Both the position numbers and the translations under genes were made by a program. Below, one piece after another: positions 28,632-43,144 of a stretch of DNA of 51,239 bases. The DNA is from Rhodospirillaceae bacterium (lineage in GTDB: Bacteria; Pseudomonadota; Alphaproteobacteria; SHVZ01): positions 1 through 51,239 of the forward strand of contig JAEULB010000022.1 of NCBI GenBank assembly GCA_016792585.1, given 5' to 3'. The notes below the pieces were generated by a model. The model was not told the origin of the DNA. It saw only the letters and a list, made by a program, of their open reading frames with translations, and searched no databases. Position 1 is the first letter of the stretch. The number at the start of each line of letters is the position of its first letter.

Positions 28632-29399
28632 ATGGACGACCTTCTTCACCTTGCCGCCGACCCCACCGCCTGGGCGGCGCTCGCCACCCTGATCGTGATG
28701 GAGGTGGTGCTCGGCATCGACAACCTGATCTTCATCTCGATCCTGACCAACCGCCTGCCGGAAGCGCATCGGGCAAAGGCAAGGCGCATCGGCATCGGCC
28801 TCGCGCTGATCATGCGCATCGGGCTGCTCGGCACCATCGCGTGGATCGTGCAGCTGACCAACCCGCTGTTCGAGCTCTTCGGCCACGGCTTCTCCTGGCG
28901 CGACCTGATCCTGATCGCCGGCGGCCTCTTCCTGGTGTGGAAGGCGACGCGCGAGATCCATCACACGGTCGAGCCCGTGCCCGGCGACTCCATGTTCAGC
29001 AAGAAGGCGGCGTCGATCGGGTTCTCTGCCGCGATCGTGCAGATCCTGATGCTCGACCTCGTGTTCTCGGTCGATTCCATCATCACCGCGGTCGGCATGA
29101 CCGACGACGTGCCGATCATGGTGATCGCGGTGCTGGTCGCGGTCGCGGTGATGATGCTCGCCGTCAACCCGCTCTCGGCGTTCATCCAGGCGAACCCCAG
29201 CATCGTGATGCTGGCGCTGGGCTTCCTCCTGATGATCGGCATGGTGCTGATCGCCGACGGCTTCGGCGTGCATGTGCCGAAGGGCTATATCTACGCGGCG
29301 ATGTCGTTCTCGGCGCTGATAGAGGGGCTGAACATGCTCTCGCGCCGTGCGCGGAAGAGGCGGGAGGAGATTCGCCGGGCGCTGGATGAGGTGAGCTAA
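28632..29399 (+). CDS. TerC family integral membrane protein
   Basis: A 255-residue membrane protein with seven or more helices. The duplicated acidic motif of the family is present: [14 protein letters not shown] with Glu24 and Asp30, and [15 protein letters not shown] in the second half. The C-terminus is basic and cytoplasmic. TerC proteins export manganese or load metals during secretion, and some are tellurite-resistance linked. The 195-base upstream gap holds an AT-rich promoter-like stretch (28460-28530), and I see no clear yybP-ykoY manganese riboswitch there. Confidence 0.9.
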
Positions 29400-35427: not shown

Positions 35428-35462
35428 CGCAACGCGCGGGGCGGTCGCGGCGTTTAAACGGC

Positions 35463-35819
35463 ATGATCCGGGTCGTGCTCGCCACCGCCATGGTTCTAGG
35501 GATCGTCAGCCCAGCCTTTGCAGCGAGCGACACCGCGCGCGCCGCCGGCGTGCTCGGCATCCTGAGCCCGGCGCGGGCCGCTTCCGACCAGAACCAGCCG
35601 CCGGCGCGCATCCAGCAGCATCTGGATACCTATGAAAGCGCGATGCGGACTGCGCTCAGGATCTCCGATCCGAACAGGCGCAACACTGCGATCGGCGTTG
35701 CCCGCACGAACCTGGCGCTGCATGCCAACCGGCAGCTGACGCCGGTCGCGATCATGCGGATCGACAGCATCCTGGGCCTGCCGGACTCGCCGCCGCTGCT
35801 GGGAACGACGAGCCGCTAG
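35463..35819 (+). CDS. Small secreted hypothetical protein with a repeated signal-like motif
   Basis: A 118-residue protein with a signal peptide (MIRVVLATAMVLGIVSPAFA-ASD, cleavage near residue 20). Directly after it the segment VLGILSPARAASD repeats VLGIVSPAFAASD, as a 17-18 residue tandem unit with changed bases. The mature part is helical (QHLDTYESAMRTALRISDPN). Function unknown. It follows the ECF42 gene by 35 bases on the same strand and could be in the same transcript. Confidence 0.6.
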   Translation: MIRVVLATAMVLGIVSPAFAASDTARAAGVLGILSPARAASDQNQPPARIQQHLDTYESAMRTALRISDPNRRNTAIGVARTNLALHANRQLTPVAIMRIDSILGLPDSPPLLGTTSR

Positions 35820-37304
35820 TCAGTCGCCGCAGCAGGACGAGCCGCCGGCGGGGACCTTCACACGCGGCTTCGCCGCAACCACGACGACCGCCGCAGGGGT
35901 GGAGGTCGGGCAGCCGCAGCCGGCCGCGCCTTCGGCCTTGGCTTCCGCGTCGGCGACGCAGCAGGCATCCGCCTCGGCCGGCGCGGGGCCGCCGCAGCAG
36001 CCGGCGGCATTCGCCTCGACGACGTTCTCCTCGCCGGGGACGGCCTTGCCGATCTTCGGCGTGACGTTGCACACGCCCGTCTCCGGCAGCTCGAGCTCGA
36101 CGCGGGCCGCGGCCTCGTGGTCGCCGGCCAGCATTGCCGCGATCGAGCGCACCTGCTCGTGCCCGGTCGCCAGAAGGAAGGTCGGCGCGCGGCCATAACT
36201 CTTCATGCCGGCGATGTAGAAGTCCTTTTCCGGATGCGCCAGTTCCTTGGCGCCGTGCGGGCGCACGGTGCCGCAGCTGTGCAGGTTCGGATCGATCAGG
36301 GGCCCGAGCGCGCGCGTCGACTCCAGCCACGGATCGAGATCGAGGCGGATCTCGCGCAGCGGATCGAAGTCGGGGCGGAAGCCGGTCGCGACGATCAGCC
36401 GGTCGACCTCGACGGTCGTCTCATGGCCGCGCAGCGAGCCGGTGACGGCGACCTTGCCGTTCGGCCGGGACGCCAGCGACGAGATGCGGAACGGCGTCAA
36501 CACCTCGATGCGGTCGTCGGCGATCGCCTGCTTCGCGCGGATGCCGAGCGCGCCGCGTGCGGGCAGCGCATCGGCCGCGCCGCCGCCAAGCGCGCTCTCC
36601 ACCTGCTCGCGCCGCATCGCCCAGAGGATACGCGTCGCCGGTGCCGACTCCTGAAGCTCGGTCAGCTCCAGGAGCGCGTTCAGCGCCGAATGCCCGCTGC
36701 CGACCACCATCGCCGCCTTGTCGCGATAGAGATCGCGGACTCGGCCGAGCACGTCGGGAATGCCGTAGGCGATGCGATCGGCCGAGGCCGCCTCGCCCGG
36801 CACCGGCAGGCCGCCGGAGCCGATCGGGTTGGGCATCGCCCAGGTGCCGGACGCGTCGATGACGGCGGATGCCTCGATCGTCTCGCGCGCGCCGTTCGTC
36901 TCGACCTGCAGCACGAAGGGCTGCGTGTCGCGGCCGGCGGTCTTCACCTTGTCGTAGTCCTTGCGGCCGACGGCGACGACGCGCGTGTTGAAGCGAAGAT
37001 GCGGCGAGATCGACGGCAGCTTCGCCAGCGGCTCGAGGTAACGCGAGACCAGGTCGCCGCCGGTCGGCACCTCGTCGCCCGCGGGCGCGGTCCATCCGGT
37101 GGCTTCGAGCAGGCGCCTGGCGACGCGATCCATCGTGAACGACCAGGGCGAGAACATCGACACATGCGCCCACTGGCGGACGGCATGGCCGACCTTCGGC
37201 CCCGCTTCGAGCACGAGCGGCGTGAGGCCGCGCTCCTTGAGGTGGACGGCGGCGGCGAGGCCGACCGGACCGGCGCCGATCACGGCGACAGGAAGGTTCG
37301 TCAT
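35820..37304 (-). CDS. ArsO-like flavoprotein monooxygenase with cysteine-rich C-terminal tail
   Basis: A 494-residue FAD/NAD(P)-binding protein. VIGAGPVGLAAAVHLKERG is the FAD loop (8-26), AMVVGSGHSALNALLEL the NADPH loop, and RLIVATGFRPDFDPL plus DFYIAGMKSYGRAPTF complete the oxidoreductase pattern. Proteins of this sort are found beside ArsR in arsenic islands; their reaction is not settled. The last 83 residues hold nine cysteines (412, 436/437, 448/449, 463/465 and 491/492) in Ala/Pro/Glu-rich spacers, suggesting soft-metal binding. It follows arsR by 11 bases as an operon. Confidence 0.8.
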   Translation of the reverse strand: MTNLPVAVIGAGPVGLAAAVHLKERGLTPLVLEAGPKVGHAVRQWAHVSMFSPWSFTMDRVARRLLEATGWTAPAGDEVPTGGDLVSRYLEPLAKLPSISPHLRFNTRVVAVGRKDYDKVKTAGRDTQPFVLQVETNGARETIEASAVIDASGTWAMPNPIGSGGLPVPGEAASADRIAYGIPDVLGRVRDLYRDKAAMVVGSGHSALNALLELTELQESAPATRILWAMRREQVESALGGGAADALPARGALGIRAKQAIADDRIEVLTPFRISSLASRPNGKVAVTGSLRGHETTVEVDRLIVATGFRPDFDPLREIRLDLDPWLESTRALGPLIDPNLHSCGTVRPHGAKELAHPEKDFYIAGMKSYGRAPTFLLATGHEQVRSIAAMLAGDHEAAARVELELPETGVCNVTPKIGKAVPGEENVVEANAAGCCGGPAPAEADACCVADAEAKAEGAAGCGCPTSTPAAVVVVAAKPRVKVPAGGSSCCGD

Positions 37305-37315
37305 GGGACTCTCCG

Positions 37316-37630
37316 TCAGGCGGCGCGCGCGAGGGGCGCCGGTGGGGTCGCAAGCGGATTGAGGAAGGCGACGAGCGCGGCGAAGGCGCCCGCTTCCAGG
37401 CGGTAGTACATCCAGCGGCCCTGCTTCTCGCCGCTGACCAGGCCTGCCTGGGTCAGGATCTTCATGTGATGGCTGACCGCCGGCTGCGAGAGACCGAGCA
37501 GCCGCTCGACGTCGCAGGCGCAGACGCGGTCGGGAAGCGTGCAGCAGCCGGCGTCGGGGCGACGCAGGAACTCGACGATGCGAAGCCGGGCCGGGTCGGC
37601 GAGCGCCTTGAGCGGGAGGCTGATGTCCAT
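37316..37630 (-). CDS. arsR: ArsR family repressor, Cys-x-Cys type
   Basis: A 104-residue winged-helix repressor (MDISLPLKALADPARLRIVE). The arsenite site is CACDVERLLGLSQPAVSHH in the DNA-recognition helix region, with Cys-Ala-Cys-Asp in the place of E. coli ArsR Cys32-Val-Cys34-Asp. Extra cysteines precede it (GCCTLPDRVCAC). An in-frame ATG at 37642 is an alternative, but the dyad and -10-like box overlap it, so 37630 is preferred. It should be released from DNA by trivalent arsenic, freeing the flavoprotein gene and probably the divergent oxygenase gene. Confidence 0.9.
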   Translation of the reverse strand: MDISLPLKALADPARLRIVEFLRRPDAGCCTLPDRVCACDVERLLGLSQPAVSHHMKILTQAGLVSGEKQGRWMYYRLEAGAFAALVAFLNPLATPPAPLARAA

Positions 37631-37634
37631 GCCC

Positions 37635-37665
37635 TCAAACATATCGATAGATTTGAATGTGTCAA
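37635..37665. promoter_or_regulatory. ArsR promoter/operator between arsR and the divergent oxygenase gene
   Basis: On the minus strand TTGACA (37660-37665), 16 bases, then TATGTT (37638-37643) look like -35 and -10 boxes, ending 7 bases before the ATG at 37630. TCAAAC and TTTGA (37635-37656) with an ATCGAT centre form an inverted repeat of the ArsR operator type across the -10 box. The position implies autoregulation and a nearly leaderless mRNA. Confidence 0.55.
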
Positions 37666-37702
37666 TATGAGAAGATTTTCCATGATAGTAGAGGAGGCGG
37701 CG

Positions 37703-38779
37703 ATGGACGGAGTCGAGACGGCGATGCCGACAGCCCCCGTCGGCGGCAGCTTTGCCTGGACTGCACGCGACGTGGCGAGGCGCGACGACTGGATCTGGCG
37801 CCTCGGCGAGAGCGACGTCGCCGAGATCGAGGCGGCGGTCGCTGCCACGCGCGGGCTGGCGATCCCCGAAATCGGCCGCGACGACTTCGCGCTCGATCGC
37901 CTGACCACGAGGCTCGGCGCGCTCCGGGCGCAGATCCGCTCGGGCCTGGGCTTCGGCTACATCAAAGGTCTTCCGGTCGAGCGCTACGATCGCGAGACGC
38001 TCTTGCGCATCTACTGGGGGCTCTGCCGTCACATCGGCGATCCGGTGACGCAGAACCGCAACGGCCACCTCGTGGGCCATGTGATCGATGTCGGCGACAC
38101 GGTCGCGGATGCCAACAAGCGCATCACGCAGACGAATGCCGAGCTCTGCTTCTACGCCGACTCCTGCGACGTGGTGGCGCTGCTCTGCATCAACCGCGCG
38201 CTCAGCGGCGGCGAGAGCATGATCGTCAGCGGCGTCGCCGTGCATGACGAGATGATGCGCCGGCGCCCCGACCTGCTGCCCGAGCTTTACAGGCCCGTCC
38301 ACATGGATCGCCGCGGCGAGGTCCCGCCGGGCAAGCTCCCGTGGTTCGGCATGCCGCTCTTCACCTGGCATCGCGGCGCGCTCAACGGCTACGCGCCGGT
38401 GCGCCAGTACATCGATTCCCTGTCGCGCTTTCCCGAGGCGCCGCGGATGTCGAACGCGCAGAAGGCGGCGCTCGATCTCTTCTACGAGATCTGCGAGGAC
38501 GAGGCCTATTGCCTCAAGCTCCACTTCGAGCCGGGCGACATCCAGTTCCTGCAGAACCATGTCGTCTTCCACTCTCGCACCGCGTACGTGGATGGCCCCG
38601 ACCCCGGGCGACGTCGCCACCTGATGCGGATCTGGATGTCGCTGCCGGACGGCCGCGCGCTGCCGCCTGCCTATGCCGAGAAGTGGATCAACATCGAGCT
38701 CGGCACGCGGCGCGGCGGCGTTCCCACGGACAAGCCGCCGGTGATCCCGCTCGACCCGTTCACCCGCGCCTACGCCTGA
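37703..38779 (+). CDS. TauD/TfdA-like Fe(II)/2-oxoglutarate oxygenase with altered iron site
   Basis: A 358-residue protein with the double-stranded beta-helix pattern. GLGFGYIKGLPVERYDRETL opens the fold, NAELCFYADSCDVVALLC is where the H-x-D motif should be, and NHVVFHSRTAY supplies the distal His (His290), with RHLMRIWMS giving the 2-oxoglutarate Arg (Arg309). In this family the first motif is normally F-H-T-D; here it is F-Tyr151-Ala-Asp153. The start at 37703 has GAGGAGG before it. It is divergent from arsR, sharing its operator region, so arsenic control is plausible. Substrate unknown. Confidence 0.82.
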   Translation: MDGVETAMPTAPVGGSFAWTARDVARRDDWIWRLGESDVAEIEAAVAATRGLAIPEIGRDDFALDRLTTRLGALRAQIRSGLGFGYIKGLPVERYDRETLLRIYWGLCRHIGDPVTQNRNGHLVGHVIDVGDTVADANKRITQTNAELCFYADSCDVVALLCINRALSGGESMIVSGVAVHDEMMRRRPDLLPELYRPVHMDRRGEVPPGKLPWFGMPLFTWHRGALNGYAPVRQYIDSLSRFPEAPRMSNAQKAALDLFYEICEDEAYCLKLHFEPGDIQFLQNHVVFHSRTAYVDGPDPGRRRHLMRIWMSLPDGRALPPAYAEKWINIELGTRRGGVPTDKPPVIPLDPFTRAYA

Positions 38780-38793
38780 AGCCGCCGCGCCGC

Positions 38794-38829
38794 TTGACGC
38801 CGGGATGATATTTCGATATTTCCAAAATT
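38794..38829 (+). promoter_or_regulatory. Promoter for second arsR, with start site at or near the ATG
   Basis: TTGACG (38794-38799), 17 bases, then TATTTC (38817-38822), with the ATG seven bases later. The block GATATTTCGATATTTCC carries direct repeats of ATATTTC and is probably bound by the ArsR itself. Geometry matches the first arsR promoter (7 bases from -10 box to ATG). Confidence 0.5.
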
Positions 38830-39171
38830 ATGGAGTCAAGCAGCATCGTCGCCGCCTTGTCGTCGCTGGCGCAGGAGACGCGGCTCGCGGTCTTCCGCAC
38901 GCTGGTCGAGGCAGGCCCCGACGGCATGGCGGCGGGTGCGATCGCCGAGCGCCTGAAGCTGCCGGCGCCGACGCTCTCCTTCCACATCGCCCAGCTCGAG
39001 CGAGCCGGGATCGTCGCGTCGCGCCGCGCCGGGCGCTCGATCATGTACGCGGCGCACTTTCCGGCGATGCAGGCGCTGATCGAGGCGCTCACCGAAAGCT
39101 GCTGCGCCGGCAATCCGGAGGCTTGCGGCTTTCCGAAGCCGAAATCCAAGCGTCGCAAGGTTGCGGCCTAG
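38830..39171 (+). CDS. arsR: ArsR family repressor, C-terminal Cys-Cys type
   Basis: A 113-residue winged-helix repressor. LAQETRLAVFRTLVEAGPDG and LKLPAPTLSFHIAQLERAGI form the DNA-binding part. No cysteine lies in the recognition helix; instead Cys91, Cys92 and Cys99 (ESCCAGNPEACG) lie near the C-terminus. This resembles the site of Acidithiobacillus ferrooxidans ArsR (Cys95, Cys96, Cys102). The tail is basic. It begins the plus-strand unit arsR-arsC-aqpS (gap of 9 bases to arsC), typical of rhizobial arsenic operons. Confidence 0.9.
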   Translation: MESSSIVAALSSLAQETRLAVFRTLVEAGPDGMAAGAIAERLKLPAPTLSFHIAQLERAGIVASRRAGRSIMYAAHFPAMQALIEALTESCCAGNPEACGFPKPKSKRRKVAA

Positions 39172-39180
39172 AGGGCGATC

Positions 39181-39681
39181 ATGGCCGATCCCTACGACGT
39201 CATGTTCCTTTGCACGGGCAACTCGGCACGTTCGATCCTGGCCGAAGCGCTGCTCAACCGGATCGGCGGCGATCGCTTCGTCGCCTACAGCGCCGGCAGT
39301 CATCCGAAGGGCCAGGTCCATCCGCTGGCGATCGAGCTGCTTGAGGCGCAGGGCTTCCCGACCGAGACGCTTCGAAGCAAGAGCTGGAACGAATTCGACT
39401 GCGCCGACGCGCCGAAGATGGATTTCATCTTCACCGTCTGCGACTCCGCCGCAGCCGAAAGCTGCCCGGTCTGGCCCGGCCATCCGATGACCGCGCATTG
39501 GGGAGTTCCCGACCCGGCGGCGGTCGAGGGTCCGATCGAGGTGCGGCGGAAGGCATTCCGCGATGCCTTCCTGGCGATGCAATCCCGGATCCGGCTGTTC
39601 GTCAGCCTGCAGATCGCCAAGCTCGACCGGATGAGCCTCAAGCACGAGCTCGACGCGATCGGCCGCACGACCGATGCCTGA
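39181..39681 (+). CDS. arsC: Arsenate reductase, LMW phosphatase-like (thioredoxin-type)
   Basis: A 166-residue enzyme that reduces arsenate to arsenite. The active-site loop is Cys11-TGNSA-Arg17 (FLCTGNSARS), the acid is Asp111 (GVPDPA), and Cys87 and Cys95 (FTVCDSAAAESCPVWPG) are the relay cysteines that form a disulfide to be reduced by thioredoxin, as in the Staphylococcus pI258 type. It overlaps the aquaporin gene by eight bases. Length is somewhat above the 130-140 of the smallest members owing to a C-terminal helix. Confidence 0.93.
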   Translation: MADPYDVMFLCTGNSARSILAEALLNRIGGDRFVAYSAGSHPKGQVHPLAIELLEAQGFPTETLRSKSWNEFDCADAPKMDFIFTVCDSAAAESCPVWPGHPMTAHWGVPDPAAVEGPIEVRRKAFRDAFLAMQSRIRLFVSLQIAKLDRMSLKHELDAIGRTTDA

Positions 39682-40327
39682 CCTGTCGCGTCGCCTCGCG
39701 GCGGAGGCGATCGGCTCGGCCTTCCTGCTGGCGACGGTGATCGGCTCCGGGATCATGGGCGAGGCGCTCGCCGGCGGAAACGCGGCGCTGGCCCTGCTCG
39801 GCAACACGGCCGCGACGGGGGCGATCCTCTATGTGCTGATCGTGCAGCTGGGGCCGGTCTCCGGTGCGCATTTCAATCCGGCGGTGACGCTGGTTTCAGC
39901 GATGCGTCGTGAGATCGGGTGGTCGGAAGGCGCCGCCTATTCCGCTGCCCAGCTCGTCGGCGCGGTCGCCGGGGTGCTTGCCGCCCATGCGATGTTCGAC
40001 CAGCCGCTGATGCAGGCTGCGACCAAGATCCGTACCGGCCCCGGCCAGTGGTTCGCCGAATGGGTCGCGACCTTCGGCCTGGCGCTGGTCGTGCTGATGA
40101 CGAGGCAGGCCGTCGCTGCCTCGGTCGCGCTCTACATCACGGCGGCCTACTGGTTCACTGCGTCGACATCCTTCGCCAATCCGGCCGTCACATTGGCGCG
40201 AAGCCTCTCCGACAGCTTCGCCGGCATCCGCCCTGTCGACGCACCGGGGTTCGTCGCCGCGCAGGTCGTCGGTGCCCTGTCGGCGCTGGTCGTCGCCCGA
40301 TGGTTCCGCGCTAGCTCTCGCGCTTGA
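39674..40327 (+). CDS. aqpS: Aquaglyceroporin-like channel (AqpS type)
   Basis: A 217-residue MIP-family channel with six membrane helices and two re-entrant loops. The two NPA boxes are GAHFNPAVTLVSAM (68-70) and TSFANPAVTLARSLSD (169-171). In Sinorhizobium the AqpS channel replaces the arsenite pump and lets arsenite made by ArsC flow out down its gradient. Here the arsR-arsC-aqpS order and the 8-base overlap with arsC suggest the same role. No ArsB or Acr3 pump is present in the window. Confidence 0.92.
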   Translation: MPDLSRRLAAEAIGSAFLLATVIGSGIMGEALAGGNAALALLGNTAATGAILYVLIVQLGPVSGAHFNPAVTLVSAMRREIGWSEGAAYSAAQLVGAVAGVLAAHAMFDQPLMQAATKIRTGPGQWFAEWVATFGLALVVLMTRQAVAASVALYITAAYWFTASTSFANPAVTLARSLSDSFAGIRPVDAPGFVAAQVVGALSALVVARWFRASSRA

Positions 40328-41129
40328 TCGCGCTTTCGTGCCAGCGGCGGAGCAGCAGGTGCGAGAGGCCGGTGAAGAACAGGAAGATCACGATCCCGGT
40401 GCCGGAGATCAGGAAGAGCGCCGCGTACATGCGCGGGATCTCGAGGCGGTAGCTCGCCTCCAGGATGCGGAAGGCGAGGCCGGAGCCCGAGCCCGCGCCG
40501 CCGGCGACGAACTCGGCGACGATCGCGCCGATCAGGGCGAGGCCGCCCGAGATCCGAAGGCCGCCCAGGAAGAACGGCAAGGCCCCTGGGATGCGGATGA
40601 ACCACAGCACCTGCCAGCGCCTGGCGCCGTAGAGACGCATCAGGTCGAGCAGGTTGTGGTCGGCGGAGTTGAGCCCGATCGTGGTGTTCGAGAGGATCGG
40701 GAAGAACGCGACGATCCAGGCGCAGATCAGGAGCGCCACGGTCAGGTTGTCGACATAGACGATGATGAGCGGGGCGATGGCGACAATGGGCGTCACCTGC
40801 AGGATCACGGCATAGGGAAACAGGCTGAGCTCGATCCAGCGGGCGGAGGCGAACAGGACCGCGAGCGAGAAGCCGCCGACCACCGCGACGCCCAAGGCGA
40901 GCGCCGTCACCTGCAGCGTGTTCACCAGCGACGGCCACAGCATGTGCCAGTCGCGCACCAGTGTCTGGGCGATCGAGACGGGACCCGGAAGGATGTACCA
41001 GGGGATCTGGTAGACGGTGACCATCGCTTCCCAGCCGGCCAGCACGAGGATGCCGATCGCGATCGGCGCGCCGAGCTTGAGCCACAAGGACTCGCGGCGC
41101 GGCCGCGGTTGCGGGGTCTCGGCGCTCAT
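40311..41129 (-). CDS. ABC transporter permease (SsuC/TauC/ThiX-like)
   Basis: A 272-residue permease with about six membrane helices. The EAA-type cytoplasmic loop is LMRLYGARRWQVLWFIRIPG, followed by ALPFFLGGLRISGGLALIGA. It matches the nitrate/sulfonate/taurine/thiamine-precursor group. Its start overlaps the stop of the ATPase gene by four bases. The 3' end overlaps the convergent aquaporin gene by 17 bases. It pairs with the ATPase and the binding protein upstream. Confidence 0.9.
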   Translation of the reverse strand: MSAETPQPRPRRESLWLKLGAPIAIGILVLAGWEAMVTVYQIPWYILPGPVSIAQTLVRDWHMLWPSLVNTLQVTALALGVAVVGGFSLAVLFASARWIELSLFPYAVILQVTPIVAIAPLIIVYVDNLTVALLICAWIVAFFPILSNTTIGLNSADHNLLDLMRLYGARRWQVLWFIRIPGALPFFLGGLRISGGLALIGAIVAEFVAGGAGSGSGLAFRILEASYRLEIPRMYAALFLISGTGIVIFLFFTGLSHLLLRRWHESAIKRES

Positions 41130-41893
41130 GCCGCGATCGCCTGGTGCAGGCTCAGGGATACCGCGCGGCAGAGATCGCCGTAGGTGTCGGACACACGGAA
41201 GCTGTCGTCGCGCGGATAGGGCGCCGGGATCGCCACGTCCTCGACGATGCGGCCTGGGCGCGCCGACATCACCAGGATGCGGTTCGAGAGGTAGACGGAT
41301 TCGAAGACGCTGTGCGTCACGAAGATCACCGTCCAGCCGAAGCGCTGCCAGAGCTGGAGCAGGTCGTTGTTGAGCTTGAAGCGGGTGATCTCGTCGAGCG
41401 CGGCGAAAGGCTCGTCCATCAGGAGGAGCTTCGGCCGCGTGACCAGGGCGCGGGCGATCGAGACGCGCATCTTCATCCCGCCGGAGAGCTCGCGCGGGAA
41501 GGCCTCAGCGAAGCCCTCGAGCCCGACCATCGAGATCGCCTCGGCGATGCGCGCCTCCGCGTCGGCCTTCGCCACGCCGGCGACCTTGAGCGGCAGGCGG
41601 ATGTTGTCGGCGACCGATGCCCAGGGCATCAGCGTCGGTTCCTGGAAGACGAAGCCCAGCTCGGGATGCGCGCCGGTCCGTGCCGCTTCCGGCAGTCCCG
41701 GCCAGTCGATGCGGCCCGCGCTCGGCTGCACCAGTCCCGCGATCATCCGGAGGATCGTCGACTTGCCGCAGCCGGACGGGCCCAGCAGCGAGACGAAGCT
41801 GCCTTGGCTGATCGCGAGGTCGACGCGGTCGAGCGCCAGCGTGCCGTTCGGAAAACGCTTGGCGACGCCGGAGAGGGTGACGAGAGGTGTCAT
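41126..41893 (-). CDS. ABC transporter ATP-binding protein (SsuB/TauB-like)
   Basis: A 255-residue ATPase. Walker A is LLGPSGCGKSTILRMIAGL (near 37-55), the Q-loop is FVFQEPTLMPW, the signature ELSGGMKMRVSIARAL and Walker B LLLMDEPFAALDE, followed by the H-loop VIFVTHSVFESV. This is the importer type that powers the permease next to it. It lies 149 bases downstream of the binding protein gene, with a repeat element in the gap. Confidence 0.93.
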   Translation of the reverse strand: MTPLVTLSGVAKRFPNGTLALDRVDLAISQGSFVSLLGPSGCGKSTILRMIAGLVQPSAGRIDWPGLPEAARTGAHPELGFVFQEPTLMPWASVADNIRLPLKVAGVAKADAEARIAEAISMVGLEGFAEAFPRELSGGMKMRVSIARALVTRPKLLLMDEPFAALDEITRFKLNNDLLQLWQRFGWTVIFVTHSVFESVYLSNRILVMSARPGRIVEDVAIPAPYPRDDSFRVSDTYGDLCRAVSLSLHQAIAA

Positions 41894-41904
41894 CGAGCGG
41901 GAGT

Positions 41905-42022
41905 GAAGAGATCACCCCCATCCCAACCTTCCCCCATCAAGGGGGAAGCGGCACGAGAAGAGGGTGACGGGCGCGTGTCGTGTTCCCTCCCCCCGGCGTG
42001 GGGGAGGGTTAGGGCGGGGGGC
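41905..42022. repeat. GC-rich palindromic repeat, second copy
   Basis: The left arm CACCCCCATCCCAACCTTCC with CCCATCAAGGGGGAAG, and the right arm CCCTCCCCCC with GGGGGAGGGTTAGGGCGGGG, form an imperfect inverted repeat of about 118 bases. The CCCCCAYCCCAACCYTCCCC block is the same as in the repeat at 3778-3927. It separates the binding protein and ATPase genes of one operon, where it may lower downstream expression by folding in the mRNA. Confidence 0.65.
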
Positions 42023-42042
42023 AGCAGCACGCTTGCTGCGGC

Positions 42043-43020
42043 TTACATCCCGACCTTCTTGTTCACGAACCTGGTCGTATAGGCCTTGGTGTAGTCGGTG
42101 CCCGGCGCGTAGACGCCGAGCGCCTGGGCGTCGTCGAAGGCTTCCTTCCAGCGCTTGTCGGTCATGGCGCCGATGCCGAGCGTCTTGGCGTCGCCCGAGT
42201 CGACGATGCCGTACTTCTTCATCGCCTCGATCGAGAACGCGATCTGGTCGTCGGTCATGTCCGGGTTGTCCTTCTTGATGAGGGCATTGCCCGGCGCCGG
42301 ATTGCCGTAGAGATAGTCCTTCCATCCGAGGATCGAGGCGTCGACGAAGCGCTGGACCAGGTCGGGCTTCTCGTCGATCAGCTTCTGGCTGACCTCGATC
42401 GTGGTGGAGTAGGTGCGATAGCCGTTGTCGGCGAGCAGGTGCACGACCGGGTTCACGCCGGCCTTGATCGCGGCATAGGGCTCGGATGTGGCGTAGCCCT
42501 GCTGGCTGATCTGCTTGTCGGCGAGGAACGGTGCGATGTTGAAGGTGTAAGGCACCACCATGTCGTCGGTGAAGCCGAACATCTTCTTCAGGTACGGATA
42601 GTAGCTGACGACGCCGGCCTTCGAGACCAGGACCTTCTTGCCCATGAGCGCCGCCAGGCTGTCGTTGCCGACGCCGGGATGCGACATCAGGATCTGCGGA
42701 TCCTTCTGGAAGATCGCGGCGACGGCGCGGAACGGGATGTTCTTCTCGGCAAAGGCGAAGACGCTGTCGGAGTTGCCGCCCATGTTGAAGTCGATGCGGC
42801 CGGCGAGCATCAGGAGGTTGTTGTCGATGTTCGGTCCGCCCTGGCGGATCGTCACGTCGAGACCGTACTTCGCATAGATGCCGGTGGCGACGGCCTGGTA
42901 GTAGCCGCCGTGCTCGGCCTGGGCTTTCCAGTTCGTGGCCTTGGTGACCTTGTCCTGCGCGGACACGGGAGAGGCGAACAGCGCGGCGAGCGCCGCGACG
43001 ACGATCAACGAGCGGGTCAT
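42043..43020 (-). CDS. ABC transporter substrate-binding protein, NMT1/THI5-like
   Basis: A 325-residue periplasmic binding protein with signal peptide (cleavage after SPVSA, residue 21). VTKATNWKAQAEHGGYYQAV, then ATGIYAKYGLDVTIRQGGP is the NMT1/THI5 start, typical of binding proteins for pyrimidine precursors of thiamine, sulfonates or nitrate. GRIDFNMGGNSDSVFAFAEK and KKVLVSKAGVVSYYPYL follow. It heads the importer genes, and adenine phosphoribosyltransferase lies upstream on the same strand, so a nucleobase-like or HMP substrate is possible. Not certain. Confidence 0.87.
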   Translation of the reverse strand: MTRSLIVVAALAALFASPVSAQDKVTKATNWKAQAEHGGYYQAVATGIYAKYGLDVTIRQGGPNIDNNLLMLAGRIDFNMGGNSDSVFAFAEKNIPFRAVAAIFQKDPQILMSHPGVGNDSLAALMGKKVLVSKAGVVSYYPYLKKMFGFTDDMVVPYTFNIAPFLADKQISQQGYATSEPYAAIKAGVNPVVHLLADNGYRTYSTTIEVSQKLIDEKPDLVQRFVDASILGWKDYLYGNPAPGNALIKKDNPDMTDDQIAFSIEAMKKYGIVDSGDAKTLGIGAMTDKRWKEAFDDAQALGVYAPGTDYTKAYTTRFVNKKVGM

Positions 43021-43144
43021 AGTGCCTCCATGGGGGAGCATGGGTCGGGTGATGACCGCGCGGCGCGGGTGGGTCACCGTCGCGGGGTTCTCAGGCGAGA
43101 GTTATCGCCGGTATCGCGGGGCCAATCAATCGACAGTAGGGGAA

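Follow-up and report, generated by a model that had tools for sequence, protein, structure and literature searches.

Among the described arsenic (ars) systems, those closest to the locus reported here are that of ArsV, a flavin monooxygenase of Paracoccus sp. SY whose gene usually adjoins arsK or arsW, and the rhizobial ars operon with aqpS of Sinorhizobium meliloti. Among the oxygenases, TauD hydroxylates the carbon beside sulfur, and its product decomposes to an aldehyde and sulfite; the carbon-arsenic (C-As) lyase ArsI belongs to another fold than the TauD-type enzymes. A passage of a review (PMC10080717) assigns the oxidation of methylarsenite to ArsV and the export to ArsW or ArsK, and a passage of a further paper (PMC12607644) describes ArsI as a dioxygenase with non-haem Fe(II) that cleaves C-As bonds. 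Here we analyse positions 35820..40327 of a stretch of 51,239 nucleotides from an alphaproteobacterium (Rhodospirillaceae bacterium, contig JAEULB010000022.1), the whole of which is called the window, where genes of both ars plans lie together with a predicted TauD/TfdA-type oxygenase.

The locus is of the ArsV type and carries an additional enzyme that is rare but recurrent; this enzyme, the oxygenase, is its unusual part. The original prediction, made from the sequence of the window, had described one contiguous block with this gene set and these strands, and all six genes are confirmed. The block and its control region comprise the following features:

35820..37304, minus strand: flavoprotein, ArsV-like monooxygenase of the FAD (flavin adenine dinucleotide)/NAD(P)H (reduced nicotinamide adenine dinucleotide, with or without phosphate) type, 494 residues (Pfam Pyr_redox_3, 8.5e-17)
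37316..37630, minus strand: ArsR1, ArsR/SmtB repressor whose sensor region bears CC and CAC (Pfam HTH_5, 7.6e-12)
37635..37656, no strand assigned: palindrome TCAAACATATCGA/TCGATAGATTTGA, predicted as the likely ArsR1 operator, covering the -10 hexamer of the arsR1 promoter
37638..37665, minus strand: sigma-70-like promoter of arsR1-arsV, TTGACA-16-TATGTT (one found against a mean of 0.1 in shuffles)
37703..38779, plus strand: predicted TauD/TfdA-type Fe(II)/2-oxoglutarate (2OG) oxygenase, 358 residues (PF02668, 1.4e-33)
38830..39171, plus strand: ArsR2, a second ArsR repressor (HTH_20, 1e-15), with a Cys pair and a further Cys near the C-terminus (CCAGNPEAC)
39181..39681, plus strand: ArsC-like arsenate reductase of the low-molecular-weight phosphatase fold (LMWPc, 2.1e-18)
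39674..40327, plus strand: aquaglyceroporin-type channel, AqpS-like (MIP, 1.5e-21), overlapping the arsC-like gene by 8 bases

As in the ArsV system, the flavoprotein gene lies beside an ArsR gene, and in 24 of 33 relatives a gene of one major facilitator superfamily (MFS) cluster is near; in contrast to the ArsV systems, which are compared here by description, the window lacks the MFS gene found in its congeners and has a TauD-type gene. The unit of ArsR, ArsC and aquaglyceroporin resembles the rhizobial aqpS operon, but here it comes immediately after the arsR-arsV unit and the oxygenase gene. The oxygenase shares the fold and the motif positions of TtnM and FrbJ, which act on other substrates (in the tautomycetin pathway and on a phosphonate, respectively), and differs from them in residing in an ars locus and in having Tyr for the first metal-binding His. 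ArsI, for its part, has trivalent organoarsenicals as substrates, MAs(III) and Rox(III) among them. ArsO is, like the flavoprotein of the window, a flavin monooxygenase of ars operons, but an identification as ArsO was rejected, the protein reaching just 45 bits against the NF040505 cut-off of 425 (NCBIfam).

Close relatives of the oxygenase are rare. At E 1e-100 only the window's own genome was retrieved among 398 sampled genomes of the phylum, and a plasmid search for close oxygenases returned three records, all at 40% identity or less; one scan of genome contigs gave 14 loci with oxygenase relatives. The originally noted oddity of a TauD-like gene in an ars locus is upheld. The portions seen of the literature on TauD or dioxygenases and ars, with thin coverage of subscription journals, describe no such enzyme in an ars locus, which is not proof of novelty. 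In total, 32 loci with distinct oxygenase copies, the window included, were gathered over several searches. Left out as duplicates were L002, L004-L009, L011-L013 and L112, which correspond to contigs L115, L126, L127, L129, L124, L125, L130, L133, L128, L137 and L001, respectively; L010 and L135 are close to contig ends.

In 15 of these 32 loci the genes for flavoprotein and oxygenase are neighbours or have a single regulator gene between them. They are the window, its congener L001 (genome G178), L003 and 12 loci labelled here Reyranella-type, most of their named records being Reyranella and one Asaia bogorensis. L003 was counted as linked although a divergent LysR gene is present and a PadR gene stands between the oxygenase and flavoprotein genes, and the oxygenase of L127, masked by an overlapping MFS match in the neighbourhood scan, was seen in other comparisons. 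L001 retains all six genes of the window in unchanged order and orientation, at 70-87% protein identity (86.7% for ArsR1) and with an extra MFS gene after the flavoprotein gene; hence, the six-gene block is more than a chance assembly. In the window and in this one congener the oxygenase gene is divergent from arsR. All 12 Reyranella-type loci, on the other hand, share the order arsR-flavoprotein-oxygenase on one strand, with at least one ACR3, ArsC, GAPDH or ArsJ-like gene within the examined stretch in 10 of them (the ArsJ of L004 scores 518 bits against a cut-off of 400) and an ArsK-like MFS gene coming next in at least five. In L122, L124, L126, L129, L130 and L133 the stop codon of the flavoprotein gene overlaps with an in-frame ATG, which would indicate translational coupling if it serves as the start; other in-frame starts exist in some.

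The remaining 17 relatives are not linked to the flavoprotein, and 14 of them have a divergent or neighbouring LysR gene. The linked copies do not come together in a tree built from 39 sequences: the 12 Reyranella-type copies form one clade (support 100/100), and the window and L001 (96/86) sit in a group with LysR-associated copies that lack the linkage and have 75-82% identity to that of the window. A single clade of all 15 linked copies is rejected (approximately unbiased test, p 0.00025, or 0.00075 without L003), and the starred branches of the tree require at least two changes of linkage state. Apparently, then, the oxygenase joined ars loci through at least two separate events in a few alphaproteobacterial lineages; an old linkage that was lost several times may be the explanation instead of repeated gain. 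The linkage had originally been deemed attributable to chance if homologs of the oxygenase lay mostly away from ars genes and the gene did not respond to arsenic. The location of the homologs gives a mixed answer: 17 of the 32 loci are unlinked, yet the 15 linked copies are not one clade.

Adjacency was also counted in 76 genomes of the order of G280, which hold 26 oxygenase and 62 flavoprotein copies, 11 of either kind standing next to one of the other; these 11 pairs all belong to one clade and are therefore not independent events. In the class sample, with up to five candidates scored per genome, none of the TauD matches listed has a flavoprotein match nearby except those of the window and G178; in G066, G182, G203 and G358, where an oxygenase relative and a flavoprotein match share one contig, the two are more than 1 Mb apart. 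The recurrence of the pairing in other genomes makes plain chance very unlikely. As a clue to substrate, the neighbours of 15 loci, mostly LysR-linked, were surveyed by eye from the first residues of open frames, with no family scan, and revealed shared neighbours among kin loci and no theme common to all.

Both sequence and fold place the oxygenase in the TauD/TfdA superfamily, with 117.3 bits against a PF02668 cut-off of 27 and Foldseek matches for a structure model of mean predicted local distance difference test score (pLDDT) 94.6. The nearest solved folds are hydroxylases: TtnM (7n7v, 33% identity, E 2.5e-27) and FrbJ, a phosphonate hydroxylase (5eqn, 25% identity, E 2.3e-23). An active Fe(II)/2OG oxygenase is expected to carry the metal triad HxD...H, which the relatives have; the window's copy reads YxD...H, retaining Asp153, His290 and Arg309 with the first metal-binding His replaced by Tyr151, and is for this reason not classed as an active enzyme. 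Residue 151 is His in all 118 relatives with letters at that position. Codon 151 (38153-38155) is TAC in the window and CAC in L001. The substitution was also considered as a trait of the ars-linked group and discarded as such, the window alone having Tyr among the sequences examined. Of the 61 columns with a constancy of 97% or more, the window deviates in this one only; the same test on 60 relatives gave no deviation in 47, one in 10, two in two and three in one. A single deviation is thus not rare by itself, but this one strikes a metal ligand. The window's copy may thus be inactive, altered or misread, and the change may stem from recent loss, from a real change of chemistry or from an error in the assembly, which has 236 contigs and is 88.8% complete. 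The gene bears signs of past constraint, since its comparison with L001 yields 0.095 nonsynonymous (Ka) against 0.503 synonymous (Ks) substitutions per site.

The flavoprotein is likely ArsV-like in fold and gene context; orthology to ArsV itself is not claimed. Its Pyr_redox_3 match (8.5e-17) agrees with an ArsV-type fold, and in the family alignment the GxGP motif is invariant and GSGHS near-invariant. An ArsR gene adjoins it in the window, and the exporter gene, absent there, is adjacent in the congeners L001, L077 and L078. The flavoprotein loci fit what is published on the surroundings of ArsV (passages of PMC10080717 and PMC11719878), and no ArsV model is among the NCBIfam matches of the protein. 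The ArsK/ArsW-like MFS gene lies at 186-1373 of L001, 7433-8680 of L077 and 5685-6881 of L078, and is missing at 35430-35820 of the window; sought elsewhere in the window's genome, it had a best match just 32% identical.

The family is widespread. It matches at E 1e-90 or better in 33 of 385 sampled genomes of the class, and relatives at E 1e-60 or better were found in 122 plasmid records, mostly of Streptomyces and Rhodococcus, with some Bacillus-like and rhizobial genera. The originally suggested count of flavoprotein genes beside arsR was made on the 33 loci L077-L109 (the class sample minus the window and G178, some of them truncated at contig ends), with an ArsR or PadR gene lying within 1.5 kb in 30. 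At 24 of the loci an MFS gene of the one cluster is found within the same distance, and the examined stretch of 12 contains ACR3 or ArsJ-like genes. Scanned against the ArsK model NF033733, six of seven MFS proteins of this cluster gave 196-258 bits and the seventh, the second MFS copy of L096, gave 36. Two Ensifer adhaerens plasmids carry arsR, a gene for an FAD-dependent oxidoreductase and then a gene annotated arsK; on the same plasmids, aioR and genes annotated as azurin-type arsenate reductase are found a few genes off.

That the cysteine-tailed flavoprotein is new in kind, as first supposed, has to be corrected after this survey: the family is large, common and arsR-linked, and the tail is family-wide, at least four Cys following the catalytic part in 67 of 75 family rows (two genes occur twice among the rows, as L129/L154 and L122/L167, and some rows are cut short). 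The tail of the window's protein holds nine Cys from residue 412 on, in a Cys-rich region of about residues 412-494, and is predicted to be disordered (pLDDT below 50 at residues 414-494 of the structure model). In L003, L080, L085, L087, L089, L101, L104 and L109 a PadR-family regulator takes the usual place of ArsR just before the ArsV-like gene; that of L104 matches PadR and has two Cys pairs. Regulators of this type before ArsV-like genes are possibly arsenic sensors. An apparent natural fusion of regulator and enzyme was also seen in P0218, a flavoprotein relative of 598 residues with an ArsR-type HTH_20 domain in the same chain.

The two divergent units of the window are separated by one short control region, in which the palindrome covers the -10 hexamer of arsR1 and the oxygenase start lies 46 bp beyond the palindrome, on the side opposite to arsR1. 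Upstream of arsR1, the window, L001, L077 and L078 share TTGACAyATTCrAATyyATCkATATrTw, with like hexamers, and the stretch of the palindrome is likewise conserved in these congeners. No oxygenase gene is present in the examined stretch of L077 and L078, which assigns the palindrome and promoter site to arsR1-arsV. ArsR1 may also control the oxygenase, and so both divergent units; a promoter-like site directed toward the oxygenase was not found in 37600-37720. Its likeliest start is the ATG at 37703, preceded by GAGGAGG. The start codon of arsR1 falls just 7 bases past the -10 hexamer (window 37630-37643), as it does in L001, L077 and L078, a gap that points to an arsR1 message with no leader or almost none; a further in-frame ATG lies at 37642. 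At the Reyranella-type loci ArsR is of another type (CC...C at the C-terminus in the three that were read), and the stretch upstream is different and palindrome-like.

It is probable that the oxygenase has some role in the response to arsenic or antimony. As to which role, the sequences show the gene set, the recurring pair, the stop/start overlap of relatives and the conserved palindrome, while we infer the regulation of the oxygenase, the ArsV identity of its neighbour, the substrate and the reaction. We propose tentatively, as the leading reading but one falling somewhat short of probable, that the ArsV-type and TauD-type enzymes, expressed divergently from the one control region, work one after the other on trivalent organoarsenicals, methylarsenite for example. 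Trivalent arsenic would release ArsR1 from the promoter palindrome, so that both units are expressed. The ArsV-like flavoenzyme would then convert the trivalent organoarsenical to the pentavalent acid, an activity published for ArsV, and the TauD-type enzyme would hydroxylate the carbon adjoining arsenic, by analogy with TauD beside sulfur. The hydroxylated product would decompose to an aldehyde and arsenite, and arsenite would leave through AqpS in the window and through ACR3 or ArsK-like exporters at other loci. Hydroxylation of a carbon next to arsenic, although our best guess at the reaction and in line with the nearest solved folds being hydroxylases, is for its own part unlikely. Equally far from assured is the most inclusive version, which we consider doubtful: that this would be the first Fe(II)/2OG oxygenase of arsenic metabolism, cutting C-As bonds at pentavalent arsenic in a two-oxygenase route with ArsV to arsenite, and recruited at least twice.

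Several observations weigh against this sequential route. Seventeen of the 32 oxygenase relatives are not ars-linked, two of them at 79% and 82% identity to that of the window, and the chemistry of the enzyme need therefore not concern arsenic; conversely, 51 of the 62 flavoprotein copies in the order of G280 have no oxygenase beside them. Repeated gain and old linkage with losses are not separated by the tree, no residue signature common to the two ars-linked oxygenase groups was found but a weak one at position 48, and the window's copy has Tyr151 in place of an iron-binding His. The ArsV identity is argued from fold and context, with characterised ArsV set alongside by description, and all seven scanned members of the MFS cluster score below the ArsK cut-off of 400, so that none classifies as ArsK under NF033733. 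Furthermore, the cut-offs of PRK11873, which we take to be ArsM, and of ArsH were not reached in any of the seven linked genomes searched, some of them incomplete (each was passed in one of 14 control genomes; an ArsM-like match in G405 reached 214 bits, below the cut-off of 263), and the substrate may accordingly come from outside.

An external substrate would also suit a different role for the oxygenase, the detoxification or tailoring of larger organoarsenicals (an arsenic antibiotic, arsenosugar or arsenobetaine) and not of methylarsenicals. The nearest solved enzymes, one from the biosynthesis of tautomycetin (TtnM) and the other hydroxylating a phosphonate (FrbJ), point in this direction; but the similarity to either is distant (33% and 25% identity, respectively), no genes for organoarsenical biosynthesis or uptake were recognised nearby, though no search was aimed at them, and we regard such a role as improbable. 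Much the same standing is given to the notion of a chance neighbour unrelated to arsenic, which seems decidedly remote. The 17 relatives located elsewhere and the metal ligand lost in the window's copy speak for it; they are opposed by the different places that the linked copies occupy in the tree, by the same-strand order with its stop/start overlap, by the 11 of 26 copies that are adjacent in one order (one clade) and by the class sample, whose listed TauD matches have a flavoprotein match nearby in no genome but the window's and G178.

A more serious contender, although still somewhat unlikely, is an oxygenase acting on an ordinary organic compound (a sulfonate, phosphonate or other), with ArsR control providing sulfur or carbon, or sparing thiols, under arsenic stress. 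Apart from the family being named for taurine, this is favoured by the LysR gene that lies, without ars genes, beside 14 of the 17 unlinked relatives, and by a transporter set of the SsuABC/NMT1 type (an SsuABC/TauABC-like ATP-binding cassette, or ABC, transporter) that adjoins the ars block at 40311-43077 of the window and likewise in L001 and L078. The same transporter genes are found, however, at the ars locus of L078 (the permease in L077) with no oxygenase in the examined stretch, and the 12 Reyranella-type loci have no such set in theirs, which yield generic ABC ATPase and PstS-like matches in L014, L124 and L128. A fixed sulfonate unit of TauABC-like transporter and TauD was for these reasons rejected, and the recurrence of the transporter at the ars loci of L001 and L078 marks it as a feature shared within the genus and not a partner of the oxygenase.

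Should the two-oxygenase route with its cutting of C-As bonds hold true, it would mean a new enzyme class in the arsenic cycle and a way of breaking down pentavalent organoarsenicals that uses a common oxygenase fold, the species handled by ArsI being, in the parts of its literature cited above, trivalent, with relevance to methylarsenical herbicides and natural organoarsenicals. Short of that, the recurrent arsV-tauD pair constitutes a defined operon in Reyranella-type bacteria.

The other products of the block conform to their assignments to different degrees. Both regulators pass ArsR/SmtB cut-offs in NCBIfam (HTH_metalloreg 86.8 bits against 55 for ArsR1), and the matches of ArsC, channel and flavoprotein all remain under theirs, the ArsC-like protein scoring 64.7 bits for the arsC_pI258 family against 174.3. 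The channel corresponds to AqpS in being a MIP protein (1.5e-21) encoded within an ars unit, its gene overlapping the end of the arsC-like gene. Next to the flavoprotein gene, 35463-35819 encodes a small secreted-looking protein with no Pfam match, and such a protein is also found near the ars locus of L077 (5082-5507). Further upstream in the window, a TerC-family membrane protein is encoded at 28632-29399.

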